From the IMG/VR virus record IMGVR_UViG_3300042922_000468, positions 1 to 39,183 of that record: DNA of 39,183 nucleotides; one strand, given 5' to 3'. The number at the start of each line of letters is the position of its first letter. Position 1 is the first letter of the stretch. The notes beneath the pieces were generated by a model that was given only the letters and a program-made list of their open reading frames with translations, was not told the origin of the DNA and did not search any database. Both the position numbers and the translations under genes were made by a program. Source of the stretch: a virus. Positions 2,402 through 30,480 of this stretch are shown piece after piece.

Positions 2402-3910
2402 ATGAAAGTAGCAGTATACACTAGAAAATCAGTATATAAGGAAGGAGCTATCTCTATAGATACTCAAATTAAACTTTGTAAAGAGTATATCTTAAGGGAT
2501 AATCCAAAAGCGGAATTTGAAATATTTGAAGATGAAGGTTTTTCAGGAAAGAATACTAATAGGCCCGCATTTAAAAAGATGTTGTCTCTAATTAAATTAG
2601 GGATTTTTAATACTGTAATTTGTTATAAAATTGACAGATTAGCAAGAAATACATTAGATTTTTTGAAAACCTTTGAATTTTTAAAGGAAAATAATGTTTC
2701 TCTTGTATCTGTATCGGATGGAATAGATCCTAATACCTCTGTCGGAGTTTTGCAATTAACATTATTAGCAGCATTTGCCCAAATGGAAAGAGAAAATATC
2801 CAGATAAGAGTAAGTGATAATTTATTAGAATTAGCCAAGAGTGGGAAATGGACCGGTGGTTCCGCTCCCATTGGCTATATTCAAACAAGCAAAGGAACTC
2901 TTGAAATAGAAAATGAAGATATGATTAAAGATATCTTTAGAATGAAATATGAAAATAAATCCGTAAATGAAATAATTGATACTATTGATTTAAATTATAA
3001 TTATAAATTTTCTCATTCTAATGTTTTGAATTCTGTTTTAAGAAAGCCAATACATGTTAAAAGCTCTATAGAAGTTTCTCAATATTTACGTTCCAAGGGT
3101 TATAAAGTTATAGGTGAAGAAGATGGGTTAAACGGCTATTACAACTACAAAGACAAAACAGGGGATTATCGTATAGTCGGGAATGTGAAAGCTTGTATAG
3201 AGCCTAATAAGTGGCTTAGAATCAATATGGATATGGATAGACTAAATAAAAGAGAAAACTCTAAGTTTAGCAAGGATTTTTATTTAACTAAAACTTTAGT
3301 ATGTCCAGAATGCGGAGGGACTTATTTAGGATGCACAAAGACTTGGAGTAAAAAATATACACTAAAAGATAATACTGAGAAGGAATATAAAACAATTGTT
3401 AGCTATTATCATTGTAGAAATAATGCTAAAGGGAAATTAAAAACTTGTGGAAATAATAAAAATATAAGAAAAGAAAAAATAGAAAGTACAATAGATGAAT
3501 TAATGCTCTCTTTACAGGATATATCAAATTTTGAAAGCTTATATAATAGTTCTAAGCAAACTAATAATAGGAATGAAATTAAGGCTTTAAATACCAAAAT
3601 TAAGACCATAGAGAAGAATATTAATGGGTTAATGGATAAAGTTATGTTATTAAGCGTAGAAGCTTCTAAAGTCTTTTTAAATAAGATTGAGGAACTAACA
3701 TTAGAAAAGACTAATTTAATAACTAGGCGTACAGATCTTGAAATTGAAGATATGACTATAAGTTCCAATACTAAAGAATCTACTTATAGTAAGATATTAC
3801 AATACAATAAAGATATGAGTATAGAAGAAAAGAGAGAAATATTAATGTATTCTTTTGACAAAATTATTTATAATCCCAAGACTGAGACACTAGAAATTTT
3901 TCTTGTTTAA
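2402..3910 (+). CDS. int: Large serine recombinase (phage integrase)
   Basis: A 502-residue large serine recombinase that integrates and excises phage DNA between attP and attB. The N-terminal resolvase domain has the nucleophile Ser10 in YTRKS and the KIDRLARN motif at 76-83. The recombinase domain follows, then a zinc ribbon with CPECGGTYLGC near residue 301 and a second Cys pair (YYHCRN, TCGN) near 336-350, then a long coiled coil. The length and all key motifs are intact. ATG 2402 follows AGGAGG. The last codons lie inside the 58-bp palindrome at 3898-3955, a candidate attP. Excision would need a directionality factor that I cannot identify. Confidence 0.95.
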   Translation: MKVAVYTRKSVYKEGAISIDTQIKLCKEYILRDNPKAEFEIFEDEGFSGKNTNRPAFKKMLSLIKLGIFNTVICYKIDRLARNTLDFLKTFEFLKENNVSLVSVSDGIDPNTSVGVLQLTLLAAFAQMERENIQIRVSDNLLELAKSGKWTGGSAPIGYIQTSKGTLEIENEDMIKDIFRMKYENKSVNEIIDTIDLNYNYKFSHSNVLNSVLRKPIHVKSSIEVSQYLRSKGYKVIGEEDGLNGYYNYKDKTGDYRIVGNVKACIEPNKWLRINMDMDRLNKRENSKFSKDFYLTKTLVCPECGGTYLGCTKTWSKKYTLKDNTEKEYKTIVSYYHCRNNAKGKLKTCGNNKNIRKEKIESTIDELMLSLQDISNFESLYNSSKQTNNRNEIKALNTKIKTIEKNINGLMDKVMLLSVEASKVFLNKIEELTLEKTNLITRRTDLEIEDMTISSNTKESTYSKILQYNKDMSIEEKREILMYSFDKIIYNPKTETLEIFLV

Positions 3911-6589: not shown

Positions 6590-9500
6590 CTATTTCTTAA
6601 GGGTTATATTACGACCTCTAAATATATCTTCTTTGGCACTTGTATTTATATCTCTTAGTAAAGATTCTAATTGTTTAGCTTTATCTTGGTCGGATTTACT
6701 AGAATTAACTATACTTCCTGCTCTGCTTAGATATTGTTGGCCAATCTTTTGTTGATAGTCTTTTAACTCTTTAGCAGTTAATTGAACTGTTTGACCTTGA
6801 AGTGTTATTTTCTTATCTGCAACTTTAGGGTATATACCGACATCTCCAGTGCTTTCTGCAATATCTTTTATTTTTTGTGTTGTTTCGTTAGTAGAATATG
6901 TTCCTGTAAATGAAGGATTAGCAAAAATATCAAATCCTCTCTGTAATCCACTAGAATTATAGTTCTTTCTTTCTTCTCCGAACGTAGTTATTTGAGGTTC
7001 TAAAGTTTTTGAAGCTCCTGGTATTTTAGCTATAACTTGATTTGCAGCTTGTTTTATTGGACTAGGATCATAAGTATTTCTTGCTGTATTATCAAATACT
7101 TGGGCTATTTGTTTTAAAGCTGTTGGAGTAAATGAATTTGCAGCTCCTAAAGCTGTATTCATTAGCCCTTTAGGTAAATCTCCAAAAGAAGTTAAATTTT
7201 GAACCCCTGTAAATAAAGGTTGTTCTAATAAAGTATTTGCACTTGTTGTTAAGCCTTGACTTATAGATTCACCCCAATTAATATTTTCTTTTTGTGACTG
7301 TGCAATATCTCCACCCATTGAAAATAATAAAGCTGTAGGAGCAGCCCAATCCCACGATATAAATTTATCGCCTTGTTGTGGTTTAGCATCTTCACCATTA
7401 GCCCAACGACTAAATGCATCTATGTTTATAGAATAAGGATTTTGTCCTATTTGCCTATTAAATCTATCTTCACTGGTTTTTTCAGCCTTTTTAGATGTCA
7501 ATATACCTTCTTTTGATAATTTGTAACCTAATAACATTATTCCTGTTCCGGTTAAGCTTCTACCCATTGCATCAACAAAAGCTTTTTGTGTACCTATCTT
7601 TTTACTATCTCTTGCTATACCTTTAATTACTCCTATAGCTGGGGAATAATCTAAAGCTCTATCTATAATGTTAGCTGGAGTTTTAGCATATTTTAATACC
7701 AAATCACCCAAACCAAATTGTTTTGATCCTTCAAAATCTTTTTTACCAAATCCTACGGTGTTTAAAGCTTTTTTTAATTTTTTAAATGTGTTGGAGATAG
7801 CGCTATCATCCTGGAATGTTCTATATTTAGCTGTAAAGTCTGCATAAGCTTTCATAGAATCAGTTACTTGTCCGTTATTTGCTTTAGTCATAGAGCGTAA
7901 AGTATCATCATAAGCTGCTTTATAAGCTGCTCTATCAGGTGCTTGTAAAGATACATTCATAGCAGTTTCTAATTTACCTAATCCGGTGCTTCTTTTAAAG
8001 GTTCTGTTCTGTTTTCCTAGTTCATATTTACCAGTAACATTAGTTGTATTTACTCCAGCTAGAGATTCTTTTATCCCTTGGCTTAAACCTTCTTTGAATG
8101 ATTTAGCTTGTGTACTTAAACTTGGTAAAGATGTAGTTCTATTACCTGTAAATGCTCCTATTCCCTTATCTAATCCAGTTGCAAGGGTTTGAGATACATT
8201 TTCTAGCCCCTGTCCAAACAAAGTATTACCTATAATATTTCTTCCTACTGTTTTAGGATTTAATAATTGTGCCATAGCCTGTATAGTAGAAAGTTTTTGA
8301 GAAACTGATTTAGGTACCATTTCATCTATATCCGCTAAAAGTGAAGCTGTTTTAAACAATTTTTCATAACTTCCATCTTCTAATTTAGATATATCTGTCA
8401 TTTCATTGGTAATTTTGTCTACTAACTCAGGTGTTAATTTCAACTCTTTTCCAACTTTGTTTTGAAAGCCGTCTATTTTATCTCCTAAATTACCTACTCT
8501 AGTTTTTCTATTCCCAACATTAGCTTTATCAAATGTACTTTGTACATGTCTAAGCATACCTTCAGGCGTTAATCTTCCCCACATGCTTAAAGCTTGAATT
8601 GCTTGACCTTGTGTAGTAGCATTTTTTGAGGTAGCTTCTATTAACTCTATAGCCTCATTGTATCGTTTATCTTTTTGCAATCTTTGTATTAATAATTGTG
8701 ACATTGCATTAGTTTCCGGCGTAGGAACTGTAGTTTCTTTAACTACTTTTATTGCCGAATCAATGTCAGTATCTATCATCTTTTTAGCTACATTTAAAAC
8801 ATCTCTATTGTTAGATATGTCATATTTTATAATAGTTTTAGCTAATAATCTTTGTAATTCAGGATCTGTATTGTTATCATTTTGAACAGTGCTCTTCCAT
8901 CTGCTTTCACCCTCTGGATAATTCGCTTTATTTTTGGGAATATTTATAGAATCATTAGCATTACTTACATTCAATGGTTGGCTCTCAGCCTTTATAGGAA
9001 CGTCGATTGAGTTAGTAGGTCTTTCTATATCGCTATTCATAACTTTAAACTTAGAATCGTCTATAGGGCTATTTAAAGGCATATCTGCGTTACTATAATT
9101 AATATCACTTACTTGTTTTAATCTTGGAGACATTTTAATACCATCTTCTATTGTATTTGAACTTGTAACTGCTGCATTTTTAAGTCTATTTAGTCCTCGT
9201 CCTCCAGCTTCTAAAGCACCACCAAAAGCAGCCCCTTGAAGTCCTCCAACTAAAGTATTTTTAGCTATATCCGAAACATTATCACCTTTACCTATTGACA
9301 TTAAGCCCTCTTGAAGTGCATTTTCTGCTCCACCTCTTGCGGCCGCTTTTAATAAAGGATTTTCTAAGTTAGTTCTATTGATTAAATTATCTGCTACTTT
9401 ACCAGTTTGGCTATAAAAGTTACCTGCTCCTATTGCTTGATTTCCGACTATATTAGCCCCTATATTAGCTGGTATATCTATTAGTGTATCAAGTATTTTA

Positions 9501-23956: not shown

Positions 23957-23996
23957 AACAAAAGCACCCTAGTATCTAAACTAGAGTGTCTTTGTT
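23957..23996 (-). terminator. Long hairpin terminator closing the late leader
   Basis: The 17-nt arms 23996-23980 and 23973-23957 pair at 16 positions, with G-U pairs, around a 6-nt loop (TTAGAT). The 3' arm ends in GCTTTTGTT. It lies after the tRNA-like elements and before the first late protein gene. The late genes must be expressed past it, so it is a likely control point. Confidence 0.7.
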
Positions 23997-24039: not shown

Positions 24040-24177
24040 TAGAGTAGGTTAGGATTTGCACCTAACAGTTTTACCATGCCTTTCCCTATCAAAGAAATTA
24101 CTTAGGAAGGATTCGAACCTTCAATGCCTGGTACCTATCTTATTTCGGTTATGTCTACCTATTCCACCACTACTCTA
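24040..24177 (-). tRNA. Composite tRNA-like element with Leu(UAA)-like 5' half and two T arms
   Basis: On the minus strand TAGAGTAG (24177-24170) pairs with CTACTCTA (24047-24040), 8 bp. Inside, in order: a Leu-type D arm (GTGGAATAGGTAGACAT); an anticodon-like arm ACCGA/TAGGT with loop AATAAGA, so anticodon position UAA (one stem mismatch, and A instead of U at position 33); a canonical T arm GAAGG-TTCGAAT-CCTTC; a 40-nt insert; and a second T arm TTAGG-TGCAAAT-CCTAA next to the closing stem. A normal 3' acceptor strand after the first T arm does not pair with the 5' end. It is either a degenerate tRNA-Leu with an inserted second 3' half or a structured RNA that imitates tRNA. It is unlikely to be a fully standard tRNA. 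Confidence 0.45.
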
Positions 24178-24194
24178 ATATGTCTTATTTAAAA

Positions 24195-24235
24195 TAGCAG
24201 AAGCAACACTCTTGCCATTGGAATTACTTCTGCTA
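24195..24235 (-). ncRNA. 12-bp hairpin within the late leader
   Basis: TAGCAGAAGTAA (24235-24224) pairs over 12 positions with TTGCTTCTGCTA (24206-24195), with one G-U, around a 17-nt loop. Twelve base pairs equal a stacked acceptor plus T stem. TTTTAAAT follows, so it may be a weak terminator instead. Confidence 0.5.
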
Positions 24236-24282
24236 CTTGGTGAGGGAGGATAATACTATGTCCAATTATTAAAAGGGGATTA

Positions 24283-24325
24283 GGAGATTTAAGGGTTTGA
24301 ACCTTATAGACCTTATTCAATCTCC
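24283..24325 (-). ncRNA. 43-nt tRNA top-half mimic: acceptor stem plus T arm only
   Basis: GGAGATT (24325-24319) pairs perfectly with AATCTCC (24289-24283). Directly inside the 3' strand lies a T arm TAAGG-TTCAAAC-CCTTA with a canonical T loop. The D and anticodon arms are replaced by 12 nt (GAATAAGGTCTA). This is the minimal half of a tRNA recognised by RNase P and some aminoacylation and CCA-adding enzymes. No CCA is encoded. Confidence 0.5.
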
Positions 24326-24330
24326 ATATT

Positions 24331-24458
24331 AAGGTGTAATTCATTGAATCCATGATTCTCATAGAGATATAATTCATCAAATCCATTCACCTTGTTTCGG
24401 TCTCATTCGTACCATTGTCCTATCTATTTGAGCTTAACAAAGTCATAGGCTTGATAGG
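24331..24458 (-). other. Further paired segments of the late leader
   Basis: CCTATC (24458-24453) pairs with GATAGG (24424-24419), and AAGGTG (24393-24388) pairs with CACCTT (24336-24331). The second encloses small hairpins TCTC-TAT-GAGA and GAATC-ATG-GATTC. It also encloses two ~17-nt near-repeats, ATGGATTTGATGAATTA and ATGGATTCAATGAATTA. They resemble neither a protein gene nor a full tRNA, but continue the run of tRNA-sized closed stems. Confidence 0.35.
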
Positions 24459-24468
24459 TTCTTTAGTA

Positions 24469-24527
24469 GGTTATAGAGAGATTCGAACTCTCAGCTCTAA
24501 GGCTTCTCCCCAGTTGAGTATATAACC
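24469..24527 (-). tRNA. 59-nt tRNA-like RNA with a near-absent anticodon arm
   Basis: The acceptor stem GGTTATA/TATAACC (7 of 7) is perfect. TA follows, then D arm CTC-AACTGGG-GAG, then only 13 nt where an anticodon arm and variable loop (normally ~23 nt) belong, then a perfect T arm GAGAG-TTCGAAT-CTCTC. The 13 nt can form a 3-bp stem AGC/GCT with loop CTTAGA. A discriminator T and no encoded CCA follow. The conserved acceptor, D and T parts argue against simple decay. It could not decode normally. A G/C hairpin GGGGC/GCCCC lies just upstream at 24550-24535. Confidence 0.5.
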
Positions 24528-24696
24528 ATATTAAGGGGCTTTTACGCCCCAGGCAGTTCTTACTAAATTCCTTTTAAGTTTACTAAGTCCCCACTATGCA
24601 AACCAATAGGTATTTTAGTAACCACATCTTTAGTTTCTTATCATACATCTATAGGAGAGATACACATATGAGAAAGAAGTTACTTTCTATACATAT

Positions 24697-24753
24697 ATTA
24701 TAACACAGGAAAATCAAGTGTTTTATGCTAATTTTATGCTAATTTTATGCTTA
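24697..24753 (-). promoter_or_regulatory. Late promoter with three 11-bp activator-type repeats
   Basis: On the minus strand a TATAAT (24702-24697) preceded by TG and one base forms an extended -10. Upstream lie three tandem 11-bp units: TAAGCATAAAA, then TTAGCATAAAA twice (24753-24721). The spacing is one helical turn. The nearest unit overlaps the position of a -35 box, which itself is poor. This is the pattern of an activator-dependent phage late promoter. The gene for a likely activator (24916-25437) is 160 bp upstream. Confidence 0.65.
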
Positions 24754-24766
24754 TTAACTCTCGCTA

Positions 24767-24916
24767 TTACTTGTTTTCCAATTCTTCTAAAGCTTTTATT
24801 GCTATATCTAAAGCACATACCTCCTCTTTATAAGCTCCACCATAAACTTTAGTTACATAAGTTTCTTTGCTCTTTTTCATGTCTTTTAATTGTTGTATAG
24901 CTTGTTTATTATCCAT
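24767..24916 (-). CDS. Small protein encoded between the late regulator and the late promoter, 49 aa
   Basis: Starts MDNKQAIQQLKDMKKSKETY at ATG 24916, overlapping the stop of the regulator gene (ATGA), so translation is coupled. It is two amphipathic helices. It may be a partner of the late regulator; no family is recognised. Confidence 0.65.
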   Translation of the reverse strand: MDNKQAIQQLKDMKKSKETYVTKVYGGAYKEEVCALDIAIKALEELENK

Positions 24917-25437
24917 CATATAACCCATTTTTCCCAGGTAGCTATATTTTCTAATAATTTCTTTCTCTTTCTATTTACCCAACTTTGTTCTATATTCATT
25001 TCTATAGATATTGCAGTATCTGTTTTATTATCTTTATACCTCATTCTGAGGAGTTTTAAACTTTCTTCATCCAATAAGCCTATATTTGTATCTAACACGC
25101 TGTAATCGAGTAATACGTCCCTTCTACGCCTTTCTAAATTACATAGTTCTATTTTTCTAGTGTCTAATTCGGTTATCTTAGCATCTATTATTCTGAATAA
25201 AGATCTCTCAGCTTGGCTCATTCCTGTAGGACTTGTTTGTACTCTTTCTTCCCATGTTGGAGAACTTATTTCTACTGGTACATTAACATCTACATTTTTT
25301 ATCTGTTCTTCTAATTCCAATATTATATCTTTTAGTACTTTTATCCTATTATCTATATTTAATATCTTCTGGTCCTTTAAGAAATAATTCTTAAGCTTAT
25401 TCTCTATATTAGATAAGTCTTTTTTATCTTTAACCAT
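24916..25437 (-). CDS. Late transcription regulator (sigma-70 region-4-like / ArpU-RinA type)
   Basis: A 173-residue protein. The first ~90 residues are coiled-coil helices. The C-terminal ~50 residues resemble sigma region 4 (LLRMRYKDNKTDTAISIEMN, IEQSWVNRKRKKLLENIATW). Proteins of this kind close the early region of many Gram-positive phages and switch on late transcription. Its location directly before the repeat-bearing promoter at 24697-24753 supports a direct role there. It could act as an activator or as a sigma-like factor. Confidence 0.8.
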   Translation of the reverse strand: MVKDKKDLSNIENKLKNYFLKDQKILNIDNRIKVLKDIILELEEQIKNVDVNVPVEISSPTWEERVQTSPTGMSQAERSLFRIIDAKITELDTRKIELCNLERRRRDVLLDYSVLDTNIGLLDEESLKLLRMRYKDNKTDTAISIEMNIEQSWVNRKRKKLLENIATWEKWVI

Positions 25438-27892: not shown

Positions 27893-28225
27893 CTATTCAC
27901 CTTCTTCATACCATTTATAAATCTTCATCCAATCATCAAATGTCATTGTTACAAGCCACTCGCACCTATCTTTTCTATGAAATACAGTAGGTAATTCATT
28001 CTCTTTTGCATCAGCCTTAGCTTGGCTTATAGCATCATATATGTTTAATCTCTCTACTCTCTTGCACTCAATGTGAATACCTTCCAAACCTATTATGTCG
28101 GCATCTCCATTAGCTCCGCAGTATTGTTGTCCACGTCTTGCGTTATATCCATATTCTTTAAGCTTATTTGAGAGTTCTCTTTCTCCCCTGGCTCCTTTTT
28201 GTTTGCTATTCGTCAAAATCTTCAC
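27893..28225 (-). CDS. Holliday-junction-resolvase-like PD-(D/E)XK nuclease
   Basis: The protein has 110 residues from GTG 28225, or 107 from TTG 28216, which has the better spacing from AAGGTGA. The motifs KGARGERELSNKLKEYG, NGDADIIG and IHIECKRVERLN give the expected Glu, Asp and E-x-K of Hjc-like and restriction-fold nucleases. It probably cuts branched DNA formed during replication and packaging. It overlaps the end of the 99-residue membrane protein gene. Confidence 0.8.
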   Translation of the reverse strand: MKILTNSKQKGARGERELSNKLKEYGYNARRGQQYCGANGDADIIGLEGIHIECKRVERLNIYDAISQAKADAKENELPTVFHRKDRCEWLVTMTFDDWMKIYKWYEEGE

Positions 28226-29977: not shown

Positions 29978-30480
29978 TCCATCATTTTAAATCTTAAAAC
30001 AGGATAATTTTCATCTAACTCTAAGCCACGACTTTTTAATTTAGAATTATGAATTTCTATAGCCTGTTCGATTGTTTTAGGACTTAATTCTAATTTTGCA
30101 AGAATATCAGCTGCAACTTGCACAACATCAACTATTTCTTCTAGCAGATTATTTATCCCATTAGTGTAATAATCTTTAACAATTTCTTTCTCATAAGCAT
30201 TAATAACCTCTTTAGTTTCCTCCTTCAATTTATCCATGAAAAACGCCAATTCTAGTTTATTATTTCCCTTAGGGATAAATATATCCTTGGAAGGGTTAGA
30301 AGTACCTCTAATCGTCTCCTGAGCTTCTCTAGCTATATTCAAAGCATTTTGTAATACTCTAATCCTATTTCGAATTGTAGGTAATTCAATTAAGCTTTCA
30401 GTATGATTTATTTCATAATTAAGTCCTGCTATAGTTCTTTCTAAATCTTCTATGGTTTCTTTTATTTTATTTTCTTCCAT
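29974..30480 (-). CDS. MazG-like nucleotide pyrophosphohydrolase domain protein
   Basis: A 168-residue protein. The first ~75 residues are coiled-coil helices. The C-terminal part has the MazG-type signature KLKEETKEVINAY followed by LLEEIVDVVQVA, supplying the ExxE and ExxD metal ligands. MazG enzymes hydrolyse NTPs or alarmones. Phage copies are proposed to adjust nucleotide or (p)ppGpp levels. It is coupled to the YopX gene upstream and the zinc protein downstream. Confidence 0.75.
   Translation of the reverse strand: MEENKIKETIEDLERTIAGLNYEINHTESLIELPTIRNRIRVLQNALNIAREAQETIRGTSNPSKDIFIPKGNNKLELAFFMDKLKEETKEVINAYEKEIVKDYYTNGINNLLEEIVDVVQVAADILAKLELSPKTIEQAIEIHNSKLKSRGLELDENYPVLRFKMME

Follow-up and report, generated by a model that had tools for sequence, protein, structure and literature searches.

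Reduced tRNA-like RNAs and a solitary abiF RNA in a phage late leader, a possible counter-defence RNA array

There are several described systems that resemble the noncoding leader analyzed here. In phage tRNA arrays a single transcript carries several tRNA-shaped units one after another, as would be the case in the stretch that we studied (the window, 39,183 nucleotides, IMG/VR record IMGVR_UViG_3300042922_000468), and elsewhere ordinary tRNAs precede an abiF RNA. Unlike those arrays, the units of the window have no anticodon arm and cannot decode, and ARAGORN called no tRNA in the window. In organelle transcripts, engineered tRNA-guide arrays and tRNA scaffolds, tRNA shapes mark cuts or hold a cargo. 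RNase P needs no more than the unit formed by acceptor stem and T arm, which is also the part contacted by RNase Z and the CCA enzyme. The elements of the window differ from such punctuation in being natural, phage-borne and reduced to acceptor and T arm, with a processing that we infer. Another close system is the type III-like toxin-antitoxin formed by abiF RNA and AbiF. In C. difficile the AbiF toxin is bound and neutralised, both in cis and in trans, by an RNA that contains two abiF motifs (PMC12373285), and an abiF RNA was listed before in cyanophage S-CREM1 (PMC9964418). The window has the same conserved hairpin core (CAAGCCU...GCUCAAAU) with its 6-bp closing stem, but without a toxin gene and in a phage late leader between tRNA-like elements. 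As with Racrs and phage antitoxin-RNA mimics, the phage carries a solitary copy of the RNA of a defence system, although the target system is different and the carrier is a tRNA-like array (a search of the window for a CRISPR repeat copy, the Racr criterion, gave only a chance-level match to CRISPR-DR57, 13.6 bits, E 9.6). Finally, the middle-region RNAs of Lactococcus 936 phages (Skunavirus) are also acceptor plus T-arm RNAs of 40-60 nt without anticodon arm, but they occupy another genome position, no abiF RNA was found with them and some copies have the parent tRNA beside them.

The leader is a noncoding stretch of ~720 nt that runs from promoter to terminator ahead of the terminase genes (Table 1). 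On the minus strand the order is a conserved hairpin region, E1, the abiF RNA, E3, E4, E5, E6 and the terminator, followed by small genes and then by the terminase and portal genes. The phage is probably temperate, because it has a large serine recombinase gene at 2402-3910. Homologous leaders were found in four other IMG/VR contigs (L036 to L039), all from sample 3300042923, whereas a search of annotated phages and 391 Clostridia genomes gave only chance-level AT-rich matches. The -35/-10 promoter scan misses the TG-T-TATAAT element, which was therefore assigned by eye. The regulator encoded just upstream is likely to activate this promoter, and the triple repeats are, judging from their sequence, probable activator sites; they have one sequence in L037, another in L038 and a third in the window and L039, a difference that would fit with regulators each having sites of their own. 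A U is found at -1 before the acceptor of E1, E4 and E6 in all copies of the window lineage, and in E6 the anticodon domain is replaced by ~80 nt of cargo. The cargo units other than the abiF RNA had no Rfam or phage match, and the GOLLD and ROOL models of Rfam had no match in the window. The imperfect repeats of E3 (ATGGATTYRATGAATTA) recall the repeat-built type III antitoxins, with no match found.

Table 1. Positions of the leader and its upstream features in the window.
Feature	Position	Strand	Evidence
Transcription regulator gene just upstream	24916-25437	minus	phrog_36, PHROG E 1.9e-14
Three direct repeats of 10-11 bases around AGCATAAAATT, upstream of promoter	24721-24750	minus	sequence
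Extended -10 promoter element TG-T-TATAAT	24697-24705	minus	kept in L037-L039; RNA start near 24690
5' structured region: long hairpin TTACTAAA/TTTAGTAA and GGGGC/GCCCC hairpin	24535-24625	minus	five-leader alignment, fold
E1: 59-nt tRNA-like RNA with acceptor, short D arm and T arm, without a normal anticodon arm	24527-24469	minus	
Solitary abiF RNA, 10 nt after E1	24418-24458	minus	RF03085, 27.7 bits, single-genome E 1.3e-4
E3: imperfect hairpin or two imperfect repeats, cargo	24333-24391	minus	sequence, fold
E4: 43-nt mini tRNA-like RNA with 7-bp acceptor, 12-nt linker and T arm	24283-24325	minus	
E5: hairpin with conserved core GGCAAGAGTGTTGCTTCT	24191-24237	minus	fold
E6: tRNA-Leu-like scaffold (acceptor, D arm, T arm)	24041-24176	minus	sequence, fold
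Intrinsic terminator of the leader	23965-23988	minus	conserved

The minus-strand sequence of E1 is GGTTATA-TACTCAACTGGGGAGAAGCCTTAGAGCT-GAGAG-TTCGAAT-CTCTC-TATAACC, with a perfect acceptor stem of 7 bp, a perfect T stem of 5 bp, a canonical T loop and a D arm of only 3 bp. The D and T arms are 13 nt apart, versus at least 23 in a normal tRNA, and the 5-bp anticodon arm with 7-nt loop of a functional tRNA is missing. Within these 13 nt a 3-bp AGC/GCU mini-hairpin could form, which is invariant in the five phages. The coordinates, acceptor stem, T arm and gap given in the first-pass annotation were exact when we checked the sequence again. That annotation had described E1 alone, and the element is real, yet it is one of at least three tRNA-like elements and the abiF RNA just downstream had been missed. 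In a single-genome search with the Rfam tRNA model (RF00005, gathering score 29) E1 reached 30.5 bits, and its copies in L037 and L038 reached 32.4; the Rfam gathering scan of the whole window does not list it. Minimum-free-energy folding is uninformative as evidence, with E1 indistinguishable from shuffles (z 0.43). In order to obtain a reference value, we generated 150 dinucleotide shuffles of the window and counted matches with acceptor 7/7 and T stem 5/5. These appeared between 0.007 (no G-U pairs) and 0.05 (up to two G-U) times per shuffled window and never twice, while the real window has two of that quality, 144 nt apart on one strand.

Comparison of the five leaders revealed a constant backbone formed by the 5' hairpins, E1, E4, E5, the terminator and, except in L036, the promoter. 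Between E1 and E4 there were three unrelated cargo segments, one in the window, one in L038 and L039 and one in L036 and L037, and E3 is absent from the related leaders of the alignment. E6 was found in the window and L037 only, with nearly identical ends and unrelated middles. The proposal that just the decoding part of E1 had been lost is supported by this comparison: E1 is truncated in 5/5 leaders, with a paired acceptor in the four related ones, none of which has a full-length tRNA at the site. As to the stem changes sought in the alignment, the anticodon arm is absent in all the copies, but the covariation within E1 is thin because the element is strongly conserved. Its acceptor varies at two pairs by one-sided changes that keep the pairing (U-A to U-G and A-U to G-U); in L036 and L039, inspection by eye shows ATC/GAT instead of CTC/GAG in the D stem, next to an alignment gap and therefore uncounted. 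In the relatives, E5 has changes on both sides of its outer stem. In a distant relative (L230, 6221-6388), a noncoding gap ahead of the portal gene contains two ordinary tRNAs, close to the site that the tRNA-like RNAs occupy in the window.

The location and the conserved ends of the leader are compatible with an untranslated control region of the late operon, acting in antitermination or stability, with the tRNA-like folds as its structural parts. The leader sits between the regulator and the terminase genes, its promoter and terminator are conserved, and in distant relatives this place is likewise taken by structured leaders with terminators. We consider this explanation improbable, since the canonical tRNA signatures, the abiF RNA and the wholesale replacement of cargo would be left unexplained and the Skunavirus arrays are located elsewhere, after the middle genes.

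A different possibility is that the tRNA-like RNAs are decoys that, after CCA addition, soak up or resist defence enzymes acting on tRNAs, such as acceptor-end modifying toxins, anticodon nucleases or variable-loop cutters like Septu. E1 could bind RNase P, the CCA enzyme, aminoacyl-tRNA synthetases or EF-Tu, or resist anticodon nucleases, as had been suggested from its fold. Acceptor and T arm could be bound by the defence enzymes while the usual cut site is missing, the tRNA-like RNAs share the array with an antitoxin mimic, and phage tRNAs are known counter-defence agents (PMC13096335). What makes us regard decoys as rather unlikely is that E1 and E4 belong to the conserved backbone and the units between them vary, when an arms race on the tRNA-like parts predicts the reverse. 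Besides, E4 and a 40-nt Skunavirus element retain almost nothing but the footprint of the processing enzymes. Constant tRNA-like elements with exchanged segments between them fit better with processing punctuation or scaffolds, and, from its context, E1 is more likely to play such a role in the service of counter-defence RNAs than to be a tRNA mimic acting alone.

The abiF RNA of the window stays below the gathering cut-off of RF03085 (27.7 versus 37 bits) and reached 38.5 bits with R1, a covariance model that we built from 22 phage abiF RNAs. No Abi_2 (AbiF toxin) gene was found in the window or in any of the 34 other viral contigs with an abiF RNA, and the named lytic phages Acj61 and CRP-143 also carry the RNA without the toxin. 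From these cases, the carriage of an antidote RNA without its toxin is well supported as a general phage pattern. The cognate arrangement, with Abi_2 right downstream of the abiF RNA, was found in phiC2 and in a Phocaeicola plasmid; in two bacterial genomes Abi_2 starts ~120 nt downstream, and a Legionella plasmid has an ACGCC variant just before an Abi family gene. Bacterial genomes of one class (L213 to L217) have a variant core ACGCC...GCGTACCA, with Abi_2 downstream in two of them and none in the genome in the other three. The neighbours of the solitary abiF RNAs include portal, terminase, single-strand-binding, macro-domain and Tad2-like anti-Thoeris genes. In CRP-143, a lytic Roseobacter phage, the RNA lies between the scaffolding and capsid genes (L223, 2002-2039). 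Another one is found directly before a Tad2-like (anti-Thoeris) gene (L194, 1294-1847), suggesting an anti-defence cluster of RNA and protein. Two further abiF matches were rejected, one as part of a tRNA D arm (L197) and one as due to chance (L255). The covariation count of the abiF alignment A3 is biased, its members having been chosen for a paired stem. Taken alone, the part of our reading by which the phage RNA is an abiF mimic seems to us likely to be right.

We have also examined whether the succession of a tRNA and an abiF RNA is found in other phages. A first test for tRNA enrichment within 1.2 kb of abiF RNAs detected none (p 0.74) and was dropped, because its control set held abiF RNAs beside tRNAs. 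For this reason we scanned IMG/VR with an oriented pattern, a T-loop located 20-50 nt before the abiF core on the same strand, with the complementary T-loop pattern, placed equally far from the core, as control. The pattern was found in 29 contigs versus 5 for the complement. These 29 include near-duplicates (L101/L263, L165/L254 and L248/L251/L253); in 28 the abiF RNA was confirmed by covariance model (scores from 53 down to 20 bits) and in 25 ARAGORN placed a tRNA directly upstream of it. From the end of the tRNA to the abiF stem there were 3-28 nt (median 9, 21 distinct cases), and in the window the distance from E1 is 10 nt. Given that both the order and the gap match, E1 occupies the position that belongs to a tRNA in other phages. 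The abiF RNA of L262 and L265 fills the tRNA-Gly/tRNA-Val slot of a ten-tRNA array. In L244 (3300025362_000007, 70.9 kb) it comes after a 125-nt tRNA-like RNA in which ~50 nt replace the anticodon loop, and further tRNA-like RNAs and ordinary tRNAs follow downstream. The whole region of this contig (5830-7600) contains tRNA-like RNAs holding 50-150 nt of cargo, the abiF RNA and ordinary tRNAs, among them a tRNA with a 17-nt anticodon loop (7105-7183). A 193-kb phage contig has an abiF RNA within a cluster of 14 tRNAs (L163, 856-892).

The Lactococcus 936 phages are unrelated to the phage of the window and have a noncoding array after the middle genes. Several unannotated anticodon-less tRNA-like RNAs are found in the arrays of sk1 (L273, 27380-28032) and 712 (L274, 29240-30094). 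Among them are RNAs of 47 nt (sk1 27986-28032, 712 30048-30094) which retain the acceptor, the T arm and a D-like stretch and lack the anticodon arm. This element is matched at least in part by 305 phage records, of which the partial ones may correspond to the T arm of a full tRNA. The copies of AV09 and PhiB1127 equal tRNA-Trp minus 23 nt, with few substitutions besides. Versions of 53-60 nt occur in sk1, 712 and Phi109, and in Phi129 a tRNA of 71 nt has a 54-nt version. A 40-nt RNA of jm2 and Phi129 is built like E4, with the acceptor joined to the T arm by an 8-nt linker. Some of the reduced RNAs adjoin the full-length parent tRNA, and this loss of the same part beside intact parents also supports the selective loss proposed for E1. 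In an alignment of nine sequences (six reduced and three full tRNA-Trp) the acceptor was paired in 9/9, with both-side changes at 4/7 pairs and a covariation score above all of 500 shuffles, although part of this variation may represent exchange between tRNAs. No abiF RNA was found in sk1 or the related arrays, so that reduced tRNAs occur also without it. For a DNA region of sk1, protection of phage 712 against AbiF has been reported (Rince et al., 2000, cited in PMC12737573 and PMC6105707), and an abiF RNA as the cause was rejected, as none was found there.

These phages also give grounds for considering the reduced RNAs as neutral relics of tRNA genes, decaying by internal deletion at the site where phages usually have tRNAs. 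Loss of tRNAs is frequent in phages, there are 47-nt copies that represent clean 23-nt deletions of a 70-nt tRNA-Trp, and one copy of CHPC958 is annotated as pseudo-tRNA. Even so, in all the reduced copies compared the acceptors pair fully and show both-side changes, and many phages retain 47-nt copies whose acceptors have diverged. A similar reduction is found in unrelated phages, and the form of E1 is identical in the five leaders. Neutral decay appears therefore very doubtful to us.

The three tRNA-like elements of the window and the Skunavirus RNAs have in common an acceptor stem stacked on a T arm. In the reading that we prefer, punctuation and scaffolds, E1, E4 and E6 would keep just the parts recognised by RNase P, RNase Z and the CCA enzyme. 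Once the leader is transcribed, the tRNA-processing enzymes of the host would cut it at these elements and free the units between them, and E6 would act as a stable scaffold with its cargo in place of the anticodon arm. The freed abiF RNA would mimic the antitoxin RNA of AbiF (Abi_2) toxins and neutralise AbiF in the infected cell, and the other cargo units would also be released. For the complete chain of cutting, release and AbiF neutralisation, by which the leader would be a counter-defence RNA array, we see about an even chance. It is a more tentative idea, to which we give somewhat less than even chances, that phages own a distinct class of non-decoding reduced tRNAs, serving as punctuation and scaffolds for swappable RNA decoys and having arisen independently in several groups.

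The presence of shrunken tRNAs in unrelated dairy viruses suggests that in phages parts of tRNAs are put to another use, the excision and carriage of counter-defence RNAs. The reduced-tRNA part can be put to the test in a standard laboratory system with the Lactococcus phages sk1 and 712. If our reading is true, phage tRNA clusters gain a new job, the release and carriage of counter-defence RNAs instead of decoding, and the short pseudo-tRNAs thrown out by annotation pipelines would have an explanation. It also points to phage antidotes against AbiF, a proposed ancestor of Cas13, and makes the other cargo units candidate RNA inhibitors of further defence systems.
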